Part shown: positions 2,461 to 15,742 of the stretch, one piece after another
How positions within the stretch are numbered: position 1 is the first letter of the stretch
How the letters are laid out: each line of letters starts with the position of its first letter
Virus record (IMG/VR): IMGVR_UViG_3300030098_005638
Span: 1-20,509 of that record
Direction: 5' to 3' (one strand)
DNA length: 20,509 nt
From: a virus
Position numbers and translations under genes: made by a program
Notes under the pieces: model-generated
The model's input: only the letters and a program-made list of their open reading frames with translations
The model's database searches: none
What the model was told of the DNA's origin: nothing

Positions 2461-5400
2461 TTATGCTAACATTCTAAAATTGTATTTAATTGATCGCGTG
2501 CTGAACCCCCATTGTTCGTCGTAATCCAGCTTGCTCATATATGGATGGTTAATATATATTTCATCTCGTTGTGGGTCTACGCCCCAGCATTTAATTGAAG
2601 TAACTGTAGAAGTATTATCAATTACTTTCAGAATCCAATATGTTTTACCATTCTTTGTCTTTTTCGAAATTACTTCTCTCGGAATAAACCATGCAACTCC
2701 CAAATCATTATCCCACTCTCCAATTGGAGGAACTTTGTAATGATCCAATCTTTGCATCACAGAATTGTCTAAGACTAAATCCATAGGAAACACCCCAGTA
2801 AGAGAGACTAGATTATTAATCTTTTCTTCATCATTGAAGTCGCCCTCTGGAGAATATAACTCTATGTTCTCTTCAAACTTCTTAAGATTCTTTGGGCGAT
2901 CCACGACAGCAGCAGACCAAAAGTGTTTAAGCCCTGTGAATCTATCATCCACCAAACTGTTCAACGCTCCGCTGCGAGATAAAACATCCAAAGCCTTTTT
3001 ATTCAACTTGCTATAGACAATATTCTCGTTAAACAAGAACTCTTCAATAGCGCTGAAAGGTCTATTATCGATGATCTGCTCAATTGCCTTTTCTCCCAAG
3101 CCCTTCAATGAAGTCAAAGGCTGAATTAAGGTTTTGTTATCTTCTGCAATTTCCCAAACTGTCCCTGACCTATTTACATCAATGGGGTCGATTTTAAATT
3201 TAAACTTTTGTGCAAGATTAATTGCCTTCTCTTTTCTTGTTTCAGGCTCTTTGTCAAGAAACGCTGCCATCCATTCTGCTGGATAGTAATTAAACAACCA
3301 CGCACACTGATAAGAGATAATAGAGTACGAAACAGCATGTGACTTATTAAAACCATACCCTGAAAAGTATTCAAACTTTTTCCACATCTTCTCTGCCCAA
3401 CTTTTAGACAGTCCCTTCTCCACACAACCTGCAACGAACTTAAGTTTTATTTTGTTCTTTTGTTTTGCAACTGCTCCCGTTCCTTTTTTGGTAAGAAGTT
3501 TGCGAAGTTTATTGCCCTCATCCAAGCTCAAGTCTTTGCCAAGCCTATGTGCCAACAAAGCAATCTGCTCCTGAAAAATCAAGAATCCATAAGTTTCCTC
3601 TGTTAGATCCTTTACATGATCATGCTCATATACAATATCTTCAGGATTCTTCTTTGCTTTCACATAGAGTTTGTCAACGTCTGCACCCAAAGGTCCGGGA
3701 CGATAGATAGATGTAATTGCAGCCACATCAATGATGTTTCTAGGCTTTGCCTTTCTGCAAAATTTCTGGGCGCCGTTTTCTGTAAACTGAAATATTCCAG
3801 CCCACTTTCCTTTATGGAAAATGTTTTCGTAAACCTTCTGATCATTCAAGTCAATCTTTTCTGGATGTAGATACTCATCATAATATCTCTTAACATCCTT
3901 GAATGTCGGACTATCAACTCCGTGATGGCGCTTCAAGATGTGGCCAATTGCACCCTCGATCATTTTAAGTGTCGAGAGTCCAAGAATGTCGAACTTAATA
4001 AAGCCCATTGGCTCAAGGTGTCTAACGTTCTGACCTTCTGACCAAGGTGTTTGAGTGACACCGCCACTATTAATCAATGGCATGTACTTATTCAAGTCCT
4101 CGCCTATCACAACACCGCCAGCATGACGAGAAACAGAGCGCATCTGACCATACAACACATTAATATGGTTCGCTACATGTGGGTATTTATTGAGAAACTG
4201 TTTCAAAGACTCTGAAAATTCCATCACTTCCTCAAAAGTTGGAGTGTAGACACCTGATTTAATTCCATGTTTCTTTTTGGCCAACGGAGTTGCTTCTTTA
4301 AGCATCTTCGACGTAACGCCATTCACTTCTGTAAAAGGTATCTGATAAAACTTAGATATGTCTTTAACTAAGGAGCGCAATTGCAAAGTGTTAAAGTTTG
4401 AGATTGGAACAACTTTATCTCCACCCCACTCTTCAATCAACATTTCTTTAAGTTCCATTGGGTCTGATACATCATAATCAATATCAGGATAATCTTGTGC
4501 ATCCCTTCGCATAAAACGAGAGAATAGAAGATTATATTTAATGGGATCAATTTGTGTTATCCCTAAGACATAGGCAATTAGCGAACCGGCTGCTGAACCG
4601 CGACCAGGGCCAGTTATTTGCACAGAGTTAGCTTTATCAACAACTGCATTCATAGTGAGGAAGTATTTACTAAACCCTCGATCTTCAACAACTTCTAACT
4701 CTTCTTTAAGTCTATCCGTATATGTTTCATTTGTTTGTAGGTTCAGAGATCTTAGACCCTCGAAACAAAGCTGTGAGAGCGCCTGTGAGGCCGTAAAACC
4801 CGCTGGGACTACAAAGTCTGGGAGTCTTACCGTATTGTCCGGTAGAAACGCTTCTATGCGGTTGTGAGCGATGTTGTATGTCTCTTTGATTGAGGCCATT
4901 ACCAAATCGTCGTCATATTCGAATCCGCACTCTTTTGAATACCTCTTATAAGACTCCCACATCTGATCGCCGTTTTTAGGATAAAGCTCGTATCCAATTT
5001 CCTCAACGCCGTCTGGCAACTCAGAAGTCATCCAGGAAGGCATACCGCCTTTACCAAGCCACCCTAAGCGTTTATATAGCTCTCTATCTTTCCATGCCTG
5101 TGCAGAGGGATAGTGACTGTCGGCAGTTGAAATAAGCTGAAACCCGTACTTGCCAGAAGTTTGAATAATATATTTATTTAGCTCATGTTGCTCAGGAATG
5201 TTGTTCCACTGAATTTCGCCATACCATCTATCACCGAAAATATCTATCATCTTTTCTGTGGTTTTGTTCATTGCACTCAATACTGCATCGCGCCCATTAT
5301 CTCGGTTTTCCCAGTAATCTCCAGCATATACGCCGCCGAGACAAGCACTGGCTGCGATAACACCTTCATTGTGCTTTTTCAACATTTTATAGTCAACACG

Positions 5401-8345: not shown

Positions 8346-9056
8346 CTATTCTCCTTTCCTTACTGATTGATAAGACTCATAAGCAATTGGAAAGAGGTCT
8401 GAGGTTATCTCTAAGACCGCTTTCGCCACTTGCTGAATTTCCCATTGCGCACCTTCGTGAATGCGTAAGTCAATAAATTTAAATAGGTTATTCAAGTTGC
8501 AAGTGCCATAATATTCTGTATATAAATTCTGAGGTAAGACACCGCGAGCTTGTTCACGGCAAACACCAGCCTCAGTTAATTTTTCATAAAGCGCCAAAGA
8601 GTTTTTATGGTGTTCCTTAACAACGTGCGATGCCAAAGTGTTTAAAATGTCACTTGGCATTACTGGGTCAAAACTCTCGTCCACTGACGCCTGACGATTT
8701 GATTTGCTCTGTTTTCTAAAATCTCTAGGCTCATAGAATTCCAAATTAAAATCAGTATATCGTCTACTGATTTCGTTGTAAGACCATGTGCGATGCCTAT
8801 GATGCTGAGAGCGTATAAACAACGGCACCTTAAATCTAAGTGTTACAACACAATGTTCTAGTGTTGAAGTGTGCCTATGCTTTATTAAATACTTTATTAA
8901 TTTGCGATCACGGTCGCTAACTTCATCAACGTGTTTACCGAAACTAACCCTAGCGGAATTAACAATTGTAACATCACTACCCATATGGGAAACGTACTCA
9001 ACAGAACCAATATTATCTTTAAATATTTCAATTTTACGCCTATAATTTTCTACCAC
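8346..9056 (-). CDS. thyX: FAD-dependent thymidylate synthase ThyX
   Basis: A 236-aa protein with the diagnostic ThyX motif RHR-x7-S at Arg87-His88-Arg89 to Ser97 (HHRHRTWSYNEISRRY). Other conserved blocks are NSARVSFGK, IKHRHTSTLEHC and the C-terminal GVCREQARGVLPQNLYTEYY. It methylates dUMP to dTMP using methylene-tetrahydrofolate, FADH2 and NADPH, so it acts after dUTPase. The start is GTG at 9056, overlapping the last codons of the preceding gene by 7 nt with AAAGGA upstream. The nearest in-frame ATG (residue 25) would cut into the conserved N-terminal strand. It lies in the same operon as ribonucleotide reductase and the co-chaperonin gene. Confidence 0.96.
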   Translation of the reverse strand: MVENYRRKIEIFKDNIGSVEYVSHMGSDVTIVNSARVSFGKHVDEVSDRDRKLIKYLIKHRHTSTLEHCVVTLRFKVPLFIRSQHHRHRTWSYNEISRRYTDFNLEFYEPRDFRKQSKSNRQASVDESFDPVMPSDILNTLASHVVKEHHKNSLALYEKLTEAGVCREQARGVLPQNLYTEYYGTCNLNNLFKFIDLRIHEGAQWEIQQVAKAVLEITSDLFPIAYESYQSVRKGE

Positions 9057-9745
9057 TTCAATCCTTTCTTACTTTTTTTCATAGCCTCAAACCAAGATTT
9101 TGGCTGAGAAGTCTTTTTAGACTCTTTAAGTTGAAAGTGTTTTCCGCTAGCCCTAGACCAAAAATCAGCATCTTTAGAAACAGTCTCTACACTTGTCCAA
9201 GGGCCAGCCCATGAATCTTGTATTTGATTGCCGTCTTTATCATATGCATTGATAACCTTAACATCTTTACCTCTTGATGTTGTGGCCACCTCTCCAAAGA
9301 TAAATGCCTCTTGATTGTATTTCCGAGAGATCTCAACGGCAGTATCAAATAAAGATTCTGCACTACTTTCTTCTACATCTTCTCCTCGTCCATGAGTCGT
9401 GACTAAAACACTGTTTTCAGTCACATGAATTGGCTCATCCAATTCTACTTCTACTTCTTCGCCTGTTTCTGGATCTACTTCTGTTTTAGTGGTTTCCTTA
9501 AAGCCGCCTTTTAATTCGGTAAAAGGAAAACCCGCAGCAGCAAAATCCTGCTTCATTTGTTGGTACATCTGTTGATTCTCTGATTGGCTCCGTTCGTGCC
9601 TATCAGAAGACATAATCACAAATGGATGTCCTCCTTCAATGTGGCCTCTTACCCTATTGTAAGAACTCATCTCTTTGATGAGATTTTTTTCAGCCATAGC
9701 TTCTCTTACTAATTGATATACTTCAGCCTTTGATAAGTTTTCCAT
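9050..9745 (-). CDS. DUF3293-like protein with N-terminal tag
   Basis: A 231-aa protein. Residues 4-16 (LSKAEVYQLVREAM) match the N-terminal tag of two other proteins in this window (see the genes at 17139 and 17687). The following body, HPFVIMSSDRHERSQSENQQ ... AAGFPF ... ENSVLV ... AVEISRKYNQEAFIFGE, resembles the DUF3293 pattern (PFxIITAxNP ... SExxNxxR ... LxRxFxQxAIF); I rate this match as moderate. An acidic linker (about 80-100) interrupts it. The C-terminus is rich in Lys (KESKKTSQPKSW, KKSKKGLKW). The ATG at 9745 has GCGAGG upstream. Function unknown. The VRE-A sequence in the tag resembles a T4-type prohead protease site. Confidence 0.6.
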   Translation of the reverse strand: MENLSKAEVYQLVREAMAEKNLIKEMSSYNRVRGHIEGGHPFVIMSSDRHERSQSENQQMYQQMKQDFAAAGFPFTELKGGFKETTKTEVDPETGEEVEVELDEPIHVTENSVLVTTHGRGEDVEESSAESLFDTAVEISRKYNQEAFIFGEVATTSRGKDVKVINAYDKDGNQIQDSWAGPWTSVETVSKDADFWSRASGKHFQLKESKKTSQPKSWFEAMKKSKKGLKW

Positions 9746-13978: not shown

Positions 13979-14202
13979 GTGTTTTCCTTTAAAACCAAAT
14001 CTGCTTCTGTTTCTATCCAAACTCTTGCCCCACAAGATAATGGTTTGTCTGGAGAGTATATAACCTTACAAGGACCGTTAATTACCACCTCGTGGCAATA
14101 ATCATTTGATTTGTACGTCTTAACTGTCAACACTGGTTCTCTTTCTCCTGTCTTGTGGTTGCGACGAATTATATGTTGATTGACGTGAATTCTTTTTTTC
14201 AT
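13975..14202 (-). CDS. conserved small phage protein, unknown function
   Basis: A 75-aa protein beginning MKKRIHVNQHIIRRN, with GEREPVLTVKTYKSNDY, a GPCKVIYSPDKPLSCGARVWIET block and an acidic end. I recognise this as a type of small, conserved, all-beta-looking protein often present in tailed phages next to HNH or replication genes, without known function. Its start ATG overlaps the HNH gene stop by 4 nt and its end overlaps the next gene by 4 nt, so the three are translationally coupled. Confidence 0.75.
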   Translation of the reverse strand: MKKRIHVNQHIIRRNHKTGEREPVLTVKTYKSNDYCHEVVINGPCKVIYSPDKPLSCGARVWIETEADLVLKENT

Positions 14203-14639
14203 GCACTTCTCTCTAATTTATTGAAGTAGTTTCTGACAGTACTTGCGTGCCATTTACCACCACGACGAGTGCTAATGCCGGTTTCATTGAATGTTTTTGC
14301 AATGCTGGCGAAAGACATTCCTTGTTTACGAAGATTTCTTAGCATTGGTTCAATTTTGTTTGCATAAGCTACGGCCTGTTTCTTTTGCGTGTTTCGTCCT
14401 TTTTCTCCAACCTCAGTAATTTTAGGGTTGCCAAGTGCAACACCGCGTTTCTTGGCGCGTGCAAGGCCCTCTTTCGTCAATATAGACGAAGCCATCCGTT
14501 TTTTGCGATGATGTGCCTTTGCGTGACATTCTAAACACAGCGGAACGGTTTTGGTGCCGCCGCGAGAACGAGGCACTGGATGATGATGGTGAATTTCGAC
14601 TGACGTCGCATTGCACTCCCAACAATCGCCAACTTTCAT
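14199..14639 (-). CDS. HNH endonuclease fused to a serine-recombinase-like DNA-binding tail
   Basis: A 146-aa protein with two parts. Residues 1-50 form an HNH nuclease with zinc Cys pairs C6/C9 and C35/C38, an IHHHHPVPRSRGG core and LCLECHAKAHH. Residues about 55-75 (LARAKKRGVALGNP) match the linker of serine recombinases (AKARGVKLGRP type). Residues 100-143 are a helix-turn-helix (MSFASIAKTFNETGISTRRGGKWHASTV), the usual recombinase C-terminal module. The recombinase catalytic domain is absent. The ATG at 14639 follows AGGGGG at six bases. A longer open frame upstream is just translation of the tRNA gene and is excluded. Its position beside an interrupted tRNA suggests homing or mobility, which is inference. 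Confidence 0.82.
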   Translation of the reverse strand: MKVGDCWECNATSVEIHHHHPVPRSRGGTKTVPLCLECHAKAHHRKKRMASSILTKEGLARAKKRGVALGNPKITEVGEKGRNTQKKQAVAYANKIEPMLRNLRKQGMSFASIAKTFNETGISTRRGGKWHASTVRNYFNKLERSA

Positions 14640-14659
14640 TTGTTGCCCCCTAGTTAAAG

Positions 14660-14876: not shown

Positions 14877-14898
14877 TTAATCCTCCTTAATTAAAAAG

Positions 14899-15088
14899 TA
14901 CCAGGGGTTGGATTTGAACCAACGACCTCCGCTTCGTACATAGATCCACCTTGCATGGGTGTTTCCACCTCAGACCCAATCGCCACTAATTACGGTGGGG
15001 GCGATTCCCCGTGCGCTTGCAACGCGATTCCGTGTGTGGACCTTTGGCTTCCTACTAACGGCGCTCTGACCACCTGAGCTACCCTGGT
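14899..15088 (-). tRNA. tRNA interrupted in the anticodon loop, possible tRNA-Val(UAC)
   Basis: Two tRNA halves surround a long insert. The 5' half (15057-15088) gives acceptor ACCAGGG, D arm GCTC/GAGC and anticodon-stem CCGTT. The 3' half (14899-14933) gives stem AGCGG, variable loop AGGTC, T arm GTTGG/CCAAC with TTCAAAT, acceptor CCCTGGT and discriminator A. Acceptor pairing is perfect over 7 bp and the stem halves pair (one G-U), so the halves belong together. Between them lie 123 nt instead of 7. Removing the 116 nt between two GTA repeats restores a 7-nt loop, AGTACGA, with UAC anticodon. Position 33 would be G, not the usual U, so decoding is uncertain. CCA is not encoded. Confidence 0.75.
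14937..15055 (-). other. structured insert within the tRNA (intron candidate)
   Basis: About 116 nt (GTA repeats at 14937-14939 and 15053-15055 make the exact ends ambiguous). It is more GC-rich than its surroundings and folds by eye into a closed structure. An outer 8-bp helix pairs 15036-15043 with 14942-14949 (AGGTCCAC with GTGGATCT). Inside are a GCG-stem hairpin (15013-15025), a 7-bp helix pairing 15000-15006 with 14978-14984 (AATCGCC with GGCGATT), and a GAAA-tetraloop hairpin (14958-14969). I find none of the conserved group I core sequences, and it is shorter than usual group I introns. It codes for nothing evident. Confidence 0.6.
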
Positions 15089-15093
15089 ATATG

Positions 15094-15177
15094 TAGCCGA
15101 AGAGGGATTCGAACCCTCACACCCGTTGCGGATAACGGATTTTAAGTCCGTTGTGTCTACCATTCCACCACTCGGCC
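15094..15177 (-). tRNA. tRNA-Leu(UAA)
   Basis: An 84-nt class II tRNA. The acceptor is GGCCGAG with TTCGGCT (G-U at both ends), the anticodon loop CTTAAAA gives UAA, the variable arm is long (TATCCGCAACGGG region), and the T arm reads GAGGG TTCGAAT CCCTC. The discriminator is A and CCA is not encoded. It reads UUA, a codon favoured by AT-rich phages. It is the first gene after the promoter at 15192-15220. Confidence 0.95.
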
Positions 15178-15191
15178 AATTTATTTTAATC

Positions 15192-15220
15192 ATTCTATCT
15201 TAAATTTTTATAATTGTCAA
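15192..15220 (-). promoter_or_regulatory. sigma70 promoter of the tRNA / HNH operon
   Basis: TTGACA at 15215-15220, a 17-nt spacer and TAGAAT at 15192-15197 on the minus strand. The predicted start (near 15185) lies about 8 nt before the tRNA-Leu 5' end. The promoter sits between the preceding gene's stop and the tRNA and would drive tRNA-Leu, the interrupted tRNA, the 45-aa protein, tRNA-CAU and the HNH gene cluster. Confidence 0.75.
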
Positions 15221-15226
15221 GACTTT

Positions 15227-15742
15227 TTAAACAATATCGTATTTTTTATCGCCGCGATAATTTACAAACCATTGCGGAATTTTATTTTTCGGATAGCGCA
15301 TTCTCGGCTTTGAAGCATAAAATTTGCGATAAGATTCGACAATATTGTCAGAATGAAATTCATAAGGCATCGCTAACGGCAATCGTGTTGGCTCGCTAGA
15401 GGGAAAAAGAGACGGATCATACAAATCCATACACTTTTCCAACACATACAAACATTTATGTATTTTACCAAAGCGCTCTGTGTACTCTTCTAGCATCGCC
15501 ATTGTGTGCTCAACAAGAGCCTCAAAGTTAGCTGATGAGTTACAAACCCACTTGGTAGATGGATGATGTTTGTGTGTAGAGCGATAAGGTGTAATTTGTT
15601 CTCCTGCCTGTTCATTGAGCACTGTGCACAACATCTGGCAAGATTCCAAAATCATCTTAACTACACGATAATTATCTTGTGACTGAGCGGATTTAACCCA
15701 ATCAATATTATTACCAGTTCCTTCAATAGCAAATATATTCAT
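15227..15742 (-). CDS. conserved T4-like phage protein of unknown function, leaderless start
   Basis: A 171-aa protein. Its blocks NIFAIEG, YRVVKMILESCQMLCTVL, YRSTHKHHPSTKWV, NFEALVEHTMAMLEEYTERFGKIHKC, and the C-terminal MPYEFHSDNIVESYRKFY...KPRMRYPK follow the pattern of an uncharacterised protein common in T4-like phages (HVVKMxxESAQxLxT ... HPxxxW ... LxxExxxRxGKxHKS). Function is not known to me. The ATG at 15742 lacks a Shine-Dalgarno sequence; instead a strong promoter ends six bases upstream, placing the predicted transcript start on the A of ATG. Confidence 0.75.
   Translation of the reverse strand: MNIFAIEGTGNNIDWVKSAQSQDNYRVVKMILESCQMLCTVLNEQAGEQITPYRSTHKHHPSTKWVCNSSANFEALVEHTMAMLEEYTERFGKIHKCLYVLEKCMDLYDPSLFPSSEPTRLPLAMPYEFHSDNIVESYRKFYASKPRMRYPKNKIPQWFVNYRGDKKYDIV

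Follow-up and report, generated by a model that had tools for sequence, protein, structure and literature searches.

What is encoded where the two halves of a phage tRNA gene are held apart by more than a hundred nucleotides in the anticodon loop? The locus lies on the minus strand of a 20,509-nt stretch, which was analyzed as a whole and is called the window here (IMG/VR virus record IMGVR_UViG_3300030098_005638, positions 1-20,509). An earlier note, made from the sequence of the window, offered three readings: an unusually small self-splicing or host-spliced intron, a new structured element, or a tRNA inactivated by insertion. Phage tRNA-mimicking noncoding RNAs are poorly understood, and the present family, in which the tRNA arms are clear, the inner domain is conserved and an RNA model is available, provides a testable example. 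Our literature searches returned no description of this RNA. With a probability of roughly 0.7, we interpret the locus as the gene of a phage-encoded tRNA-like noncoding RNA of ~180-190 nt that is stable and is not a decoding tRNA.

tRNA Arms in the Window

The tRNA halves seen in the earlier note are real: the four stems (acceptor, D, anticodon and T) are paired on the minus strand (Table 1), and the covariance model R1 places the RNA at 14897-15088 with 208.5 bits. In the alignment A1, which holds 8 sequences, the acceptor, D and T arms pair as in tRNA (RF00005) in all of them. The acceptor stem has compensatory changes at three of its seven pairs and the T stem at three of five, both remaining 100% paired, and the anticodon stem has two pairs with such changes (CACC/GGTG in L018). 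The elbow is not uniformly tRNA-like, as G18-G19 are missing in L016 and L019, and C56 is missing in L019.

The RNA departs from RF00005 in the anticodon loop, which should have 7 nt, U33 and a usable anticodon and was not found in this form. Taking out 116 nt of the window does leave the loop AGUACGA, with UAC as the anticodon and G at position 33, and the caution that had been voiced about this G was justified. In its default mode ARAGORN misses the gene. With introns allowed, it reports a 98-nt C-loop intron and a CAT anticodon, with boundaries other than those of the GTA-flanked 116 nt; this call is uninformative, because anticodons and boundaries differ in the relatives. Annotation should take warning, as the gene escapes tRNA scanners run at default settings, and scanners that allow introns assign it inconsistent boundaries and anticodons.

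Table 1. Features of the tRNA-like RNA gene and its upstream region in the window.
Feature	Position	Strand	Remarks
Whole tRNA-like RNA gene	14899..15089	-	mature 5' end expected at 15088, discriminator A 14899
Acceptor stem, 5' strand ACCAGGG	15082..15088	-	7 bp with 14900-14906
D arm GCTC-AGGTGGTCA-GAGC	15063..15079	-	4 bp, invariant in 8/8 sequences
Anticodon stem, 5' strand CCGTT	15057..15061	-	pairs with 14929-14933
Insert, type A form, in place of the anticodon loop	14940..15055	-	116 nt between GTAs
Closing helix of inner domain, 5' strand AGGTC	15039..15043	-	5 bp with 14942-14946
Inner helix, 5' strand ACGG	15030..15033	-	pairs with CCGT 14992-14995
Hairpin GGGG-AATCG-CCCC	14998..15010	-	pairs in all sequences, core pairs invariant
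Inner helix, 3' strand CCGT	14992..14995	-
GCGA, candidate pseudoknot strand	14980..14983	-	with hairpin-loop TCGC 15001-15004
Hairpin CACC-CATGCAA-GGTG, conserved ATGCA loop	14947..14961	-	100% paired
Closing helix of inner domain, 3' strand GATCT	14942..14946	-	100% paired, one pair G-U/A-U
Anticodon stem, 3' strand AGCGG	14929..14933	-
T arm GTTGG-TTCAAAT-CCAAC	14907..14923	-
Acceptor stem, 3' strand CCCTGGT	14900..14906	-
tRNA-Leu(UAA)	15093..15177	-	directly upstream, few nt away; same neighbor in L013
Promoter-like TTGACA-17-TAGAAT, ahead of tRNA-Leu and tRNA-like RNA	15192..15220	-	11/12 consensus matches

Distribution Among Phages

Apart from the window record, 8 IMG/VR contigs contain homologs of the RNA. 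Every member belongs to an uncultivated phage known from metagenomes, in most cases from a partial contig, and the members fall into 7 lineages including that of the window, several of them without relationship in the flanking genes. Two near-identical contigs turned up in an exact search for a portion of the insert. With the neighboring DnaB-like helicase as protein query, 10 loci of 80-100% amino acid identity were obtained; among these, L013 carries a diverged version of the RNA in the same place after tRNA-Leu, and L005, L006, L007, and L011 have the tRNA-Leu without the tRNA-like RNA. Patterns taken from different conserved parts of the RNA recovered L014, L015, L016, L018, and L019 in other genomic settings, so that independent conserved patterns converge on the same set of members. 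Eight matches to a looser pattern (L020-L027) are without the element and were discarded as chance.

The copy in L018 lies inside a tRNA array on a 284-kb contig and that in L013 on a 190-kb contig, and within the stretch compared L015, L016, and L019 have no flanking protein in common with the window. R1 gives ~199-214 bits for all members, with one copy per record; its E-values are rough, because the calibration was a short run. As judged from these records, the RNA is a single-copy gene of several phage lineages, situated within a tRNA cluster or elsewhere. Two exact scans with core patterns gave zero matches in 84,980 prokaryote species genomes, and blastn searches of cultured phages (window and L018 as queries) and of plasmids (L018 as query) found no copy, their output being empty or limited to fragments of tRNA arms and matches by chance.

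Structure of the Inner Domain

The insert is GC-richer than its surroundings, as the earlier note had observed (56% vs. 39% for the window), and 71 of 109 compared columns are invariant across the 8 sequences. Not all helices that had been drawn from the single sequence withstand the comparison. In the 8-bp closing helix the outer six pairs always form, but the next two break in L019, where their bases form a covarying hairpin instead, and the helix shows no compensation across the relatives. The hairpin with the GAAA tetraloop, likewise read from a single sequence, is broken in 12% of the cells, with zero compensatory change.

Three of the four pairs of the hairpin with the ATGCA loop are compensated (CACC/GGTG, CACT/AGTG, CGTT/AACG), and the inner helix is paired in all sequences, having an A-U pair in one type of insert (type A, ACGG/CCGT) and C-G in the other (type B, CCGG/CCGG). 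The candidate pseudoknot TCGC/GCGA is complementary in 8/8 sequences, with bases that never vary. Among the unpaired columns 39 of 67 are invariant in the insert vs. 11 of 27 in the arms, and therefore the unpaired bases of the inner domain probably matter.

Over the whole alignment, 95% of the cells of the 43 proposed pairs are paired and 11 pairs have changed on both sides. When partners were slid by up to three columns as a control, 0-3 double-changed pairs remained, and none of 500 shuffles matched the observed pairing, the number of double-changed pairs or the covariation score. The covariation counts are nevertheless modest, because only ~7 independent sequences of the family are known. 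Folding energy does not differ significantly from that of shuffled sequences (z = -0.28 for the insert, -0.85 for the whole RNA) and was therefore not used as evidence for structure; the case for a structured insert is made by conservation together with covariation, folding energy alone being insufficient. As the alignment shows, pairing in the tRNA arms and in two or more inner helices has been preserved by compensatory changes. A coding role of the insert was also considered and rejected, because the indels between the types are not multiples of three and the stems covary.

Insert Types and Genome Backbone

An extra GC-rich hairpin distinguishes type A (window, L002, L014, L015) from type B (L013, L016, L018, L019), which is without it. 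Insert identity amounts to 92-99% within type A and 87-94% within type B, and to 65-74% between the types. Comparison with the flanking genes indicates that the types do not track the genome backbone. The neighbors of the RNA in the window and in L013 are roughly 55-90% identical at the amino acid level (exonuclease 80%), yet the inserts are of different types. Between the window and L014 the inserts are 95% identical and the arms 75%, the neighboring genes ranging over 65-90% (exonuclease 65%, two other genes 77% and 90%). Recombination between co-infecting phages would explain this mismatch, as would intron-like mobility. Four-taxon site counts on the incongruence of arms and insert found few informative sites in the arms.

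A HNH-like motif gene lies at 14199-14640 (-) of the window, just 3' of a tRNA-Met, and is missing from the near-identical relative L010/L002, which suggests a free-standing homing endonuclease recently gained or lost. Mobility of the insert by way of this gene was rejected, because L010 carries the insert without it.

Intron, Pseudogene or Unspliced RNA

An intron should leave a usable anticodon loop behind. When every 7-nt loop that can be made from the bases of either side was enumerated in six lineages, four never gave U33, and in L014 and L016 it was obtainable only with different anticodons (GAC, GGA); joining at a fixed junction produces a Val, Tyr, Cys, Ser, Arg or undefined tRNA, depending on the lineage. 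The GTA direct repeat is missing from L013, L014, L015, L016, and L018, and L013 (4077-4269) has 11 extra nt, CGTTTATATAA, at the 5' junction between anticodon stem and insert. The earlier note had proposed to compare the same tRNA with and without the insert. Insert-bearing relatives were indeed found, but a search for the empty site in 14 related records, all possibly incomplete, gave no insert-less allele, and relatives without the insert are also without the entire RNA. Each of these points is arguable alone; together, the failure to obtain U33 and an anticodon, the unshared GTA repeat, the 11 nt in L013 and the lack of an empty site favor an RNA that works unspliced.

We therefore regard it as unlikely that a tRNA gene is interrupted here by an intron of a new kind and of unusually small size (~105-116 nt), be it a self-splicing ribozyme or an intron removed by endonuclease and ligase of phage or host. 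The location in the anticodon loop, the invariant unpaired positions, which recall a ribozyme core, the exchange of types A and B between backbones and the acceptance of most joined arms as tRNAs by ARAGORN would all suit such an intron. However, in addition to the junction evidence above, the loop residues of the arms vary in length and sequence, the last anticodon-stem pair is lost in L013 and L018, and the Rfam models of group I and II introns found no match in the window even at E up to 10. The small intron of the earlier note is thus disfavored, with its repeat unconserved, no acceptable junction in common and no insert-less copy, while its remark that group I hallmarks are absent holds. 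Less likely still is that the insert represents a new ribozyme class of ~105-116 nt that would splice or cleave itself out of a tRNA-like precursor, with two exchangeable types moving between phages; if spliced, the insert would be far smaller than any known self-splicing RNA. We give hardly any credence to a tRNA pseudogene disrupted by a mobile or random sequence. It would accommodate G33, the mixed signatures of the D and T loops and the want of a sensible anticodon, but distant phages have conserved both insert and arms, with compensatory changes in the stems, which contradicts the inactivated tRNA of the earlier note; moreover, the members have no target-site duplication in common, and one copy per record does not resemble a dispersed repeat. 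The new structured element, the remaining proposal of that note, is supported by the conservation in several phage lineages and by the covarying pairs.

It is also highly unlikely that the RNA belongs or is related to a known tRNA mimic, i.e., YrlA (Y RNA), tmRNA or T4 species 1 RNA. All of these pair tRNA-like arms with an extra domain, and T4 rnaC, whose gene belongs to a tRNA cluster, possesses a T arm. On the other hand, the YrlA/Y RNA covariance model did not match the window at E up to 10, ARAGORN found zero tmRNA and the Rfam tmRNA model was likewise negative, and R1 reached only 5 bits, with a rough E of 0.36, on the T4 tRNA region that contains rnaC (filters off). The topology of YrlA is reversed as well, that RNA ending in its Ro-binding stem (PMC8394870).

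A Model for the tRNA-Like RNA

In the model that we prefer, that of a stable tRNA-like RNA, the acceptor, D, anticodon-stem and T arms would form a scaffold in which a domain of ~105-116 nt, likely pseudoknotted, replaces the anticodon loop. Transcription would proceed behind tRNA-Leu or from an own promoter, and, by analogy with tRNA biology, host RNase P, 3' processing and CCA-adding enzymes would mature and stabilize the RNA like a tRNA. The inner domain exceeds the arms in conservation within each type and is probably the functional surface; as the working part, it would bind a protein or RNA of host or phage during infection. The tRNA shell may confer stability and perhaps tRNA mimicry, e.g., by baiting a host factor that binds or cleaves tRNA. 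Such a decoy role against a host factor is our guess, for which YrlA, suggested as a possible competitor for an anticodon nuclease (PMC7790460), offers an analogy. Counting against the model, the insert sits exactly at the tRNA intron site and its types ignore the backbone, which leaves room for a mobile intron.

Promoters and Neighboring Genes

The tRNA-Leu(UAA) and the tRNA-like RNA are probably co-transcribed. The promoter-like sequence ahead of them (Table 1) comes from a scan with 2 matches against a chance expectation of 1.8. In L014, a perfect TTGACA-17-TATAAT ends 22 nt upstream of the RNA. A gene for a DenV-like pyrimidine dimer glycosylase is located at 15227-15742 (-) of the window, and its ortholog in L014 is also directly upstream of the RNA. 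L005 has a 51-nt tRNA remnant (5280-5330) upstream of tRNA-Leu and behind a promoter-like sequence, in which acceptor and T arms are kept and the anticodon region is gone.

A second conserved and apparently structured RNA adjoins the tRNA-like RNA in both L018 (4304-4436, -) and L016 (1642-1774, +), with 85% identity over 134 nt. Its pattern matches these two IMG/VR contigs only, and it has no Rfam match. Elsewhere in the window, the gene at 9050-9745 (-) matches the Pfam S-adenosylmethionine lyase family; in other phages this enzyme is a SAM-depleting factor.

Comparison With Known RNAs

None of the catalogued RNA families matches the insert domain. Rfam scans of the window (to E 10) and of relatives (E 10 or E 1) returned ordinary tRNAs and chance matches only; for the group I intron core (P3-P8, with the G-binding site of P7) no match was obtained up to E 10 in the window or up to E 1 in L018, L016, and L019, and group II introns (domain V, ends) were without a match in the same four records. 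Some bacterial tRNAs, such as Azoarcus tRNA-Ile and cyanobacterial tRNA-Leu, likewise have a group I intron in the anticodon loop, whereas the present insert has neither a model match nor a conserved spliceable junction. To our knowledge, the smallest natural introns of that kind are about twice as long as this insert. A 2014 review placed all phage group I introns then known in protein-coding genes (PMC3984707). Archaeal bulge-helix-bulge tRNA introns are similar in size and location, but their 4-bp helix between two 3-nt bulges is absent at the present junction, where most members have a 2-bp GU/AC pairing flanked by 1 nt and 1-2 nt, forming a small internal loop.

YrlA resembles the present RNA in being modular, with D-, T- and acceptor-like tRNA arms and a second domain (PMC8394870). 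The Ro/Rsr-binding stem of YrlA contains its paired 5' and 3' ends (PMC8394870), whereas in the present RNA the two ends meet in the acceptor stem and the extra domain lies internally, on the anticodon side.

The closest analog is T4 species 1 RNA (rnaC, misc_RNA T4s001), a 139-nt RNA annotated as a small stable RNA beside the T4 tRNAs. We know of no function of the T4 species 1 and 2 RNAs. The predicted fold of rnaC is without a canonical D arm, whereas the present RNA keeps the acceptor, D, anticodon-stem and T arms, and the inner domains differ, with no sequence match. Nevertheless, both are small phage RNAs of tRNA clusters (in the present family, some members), with a T arm near the 3' end and, for the present RNA, a stability that its tRNA arms would provide, and both have a long structured extension in the place of ordinary arms.
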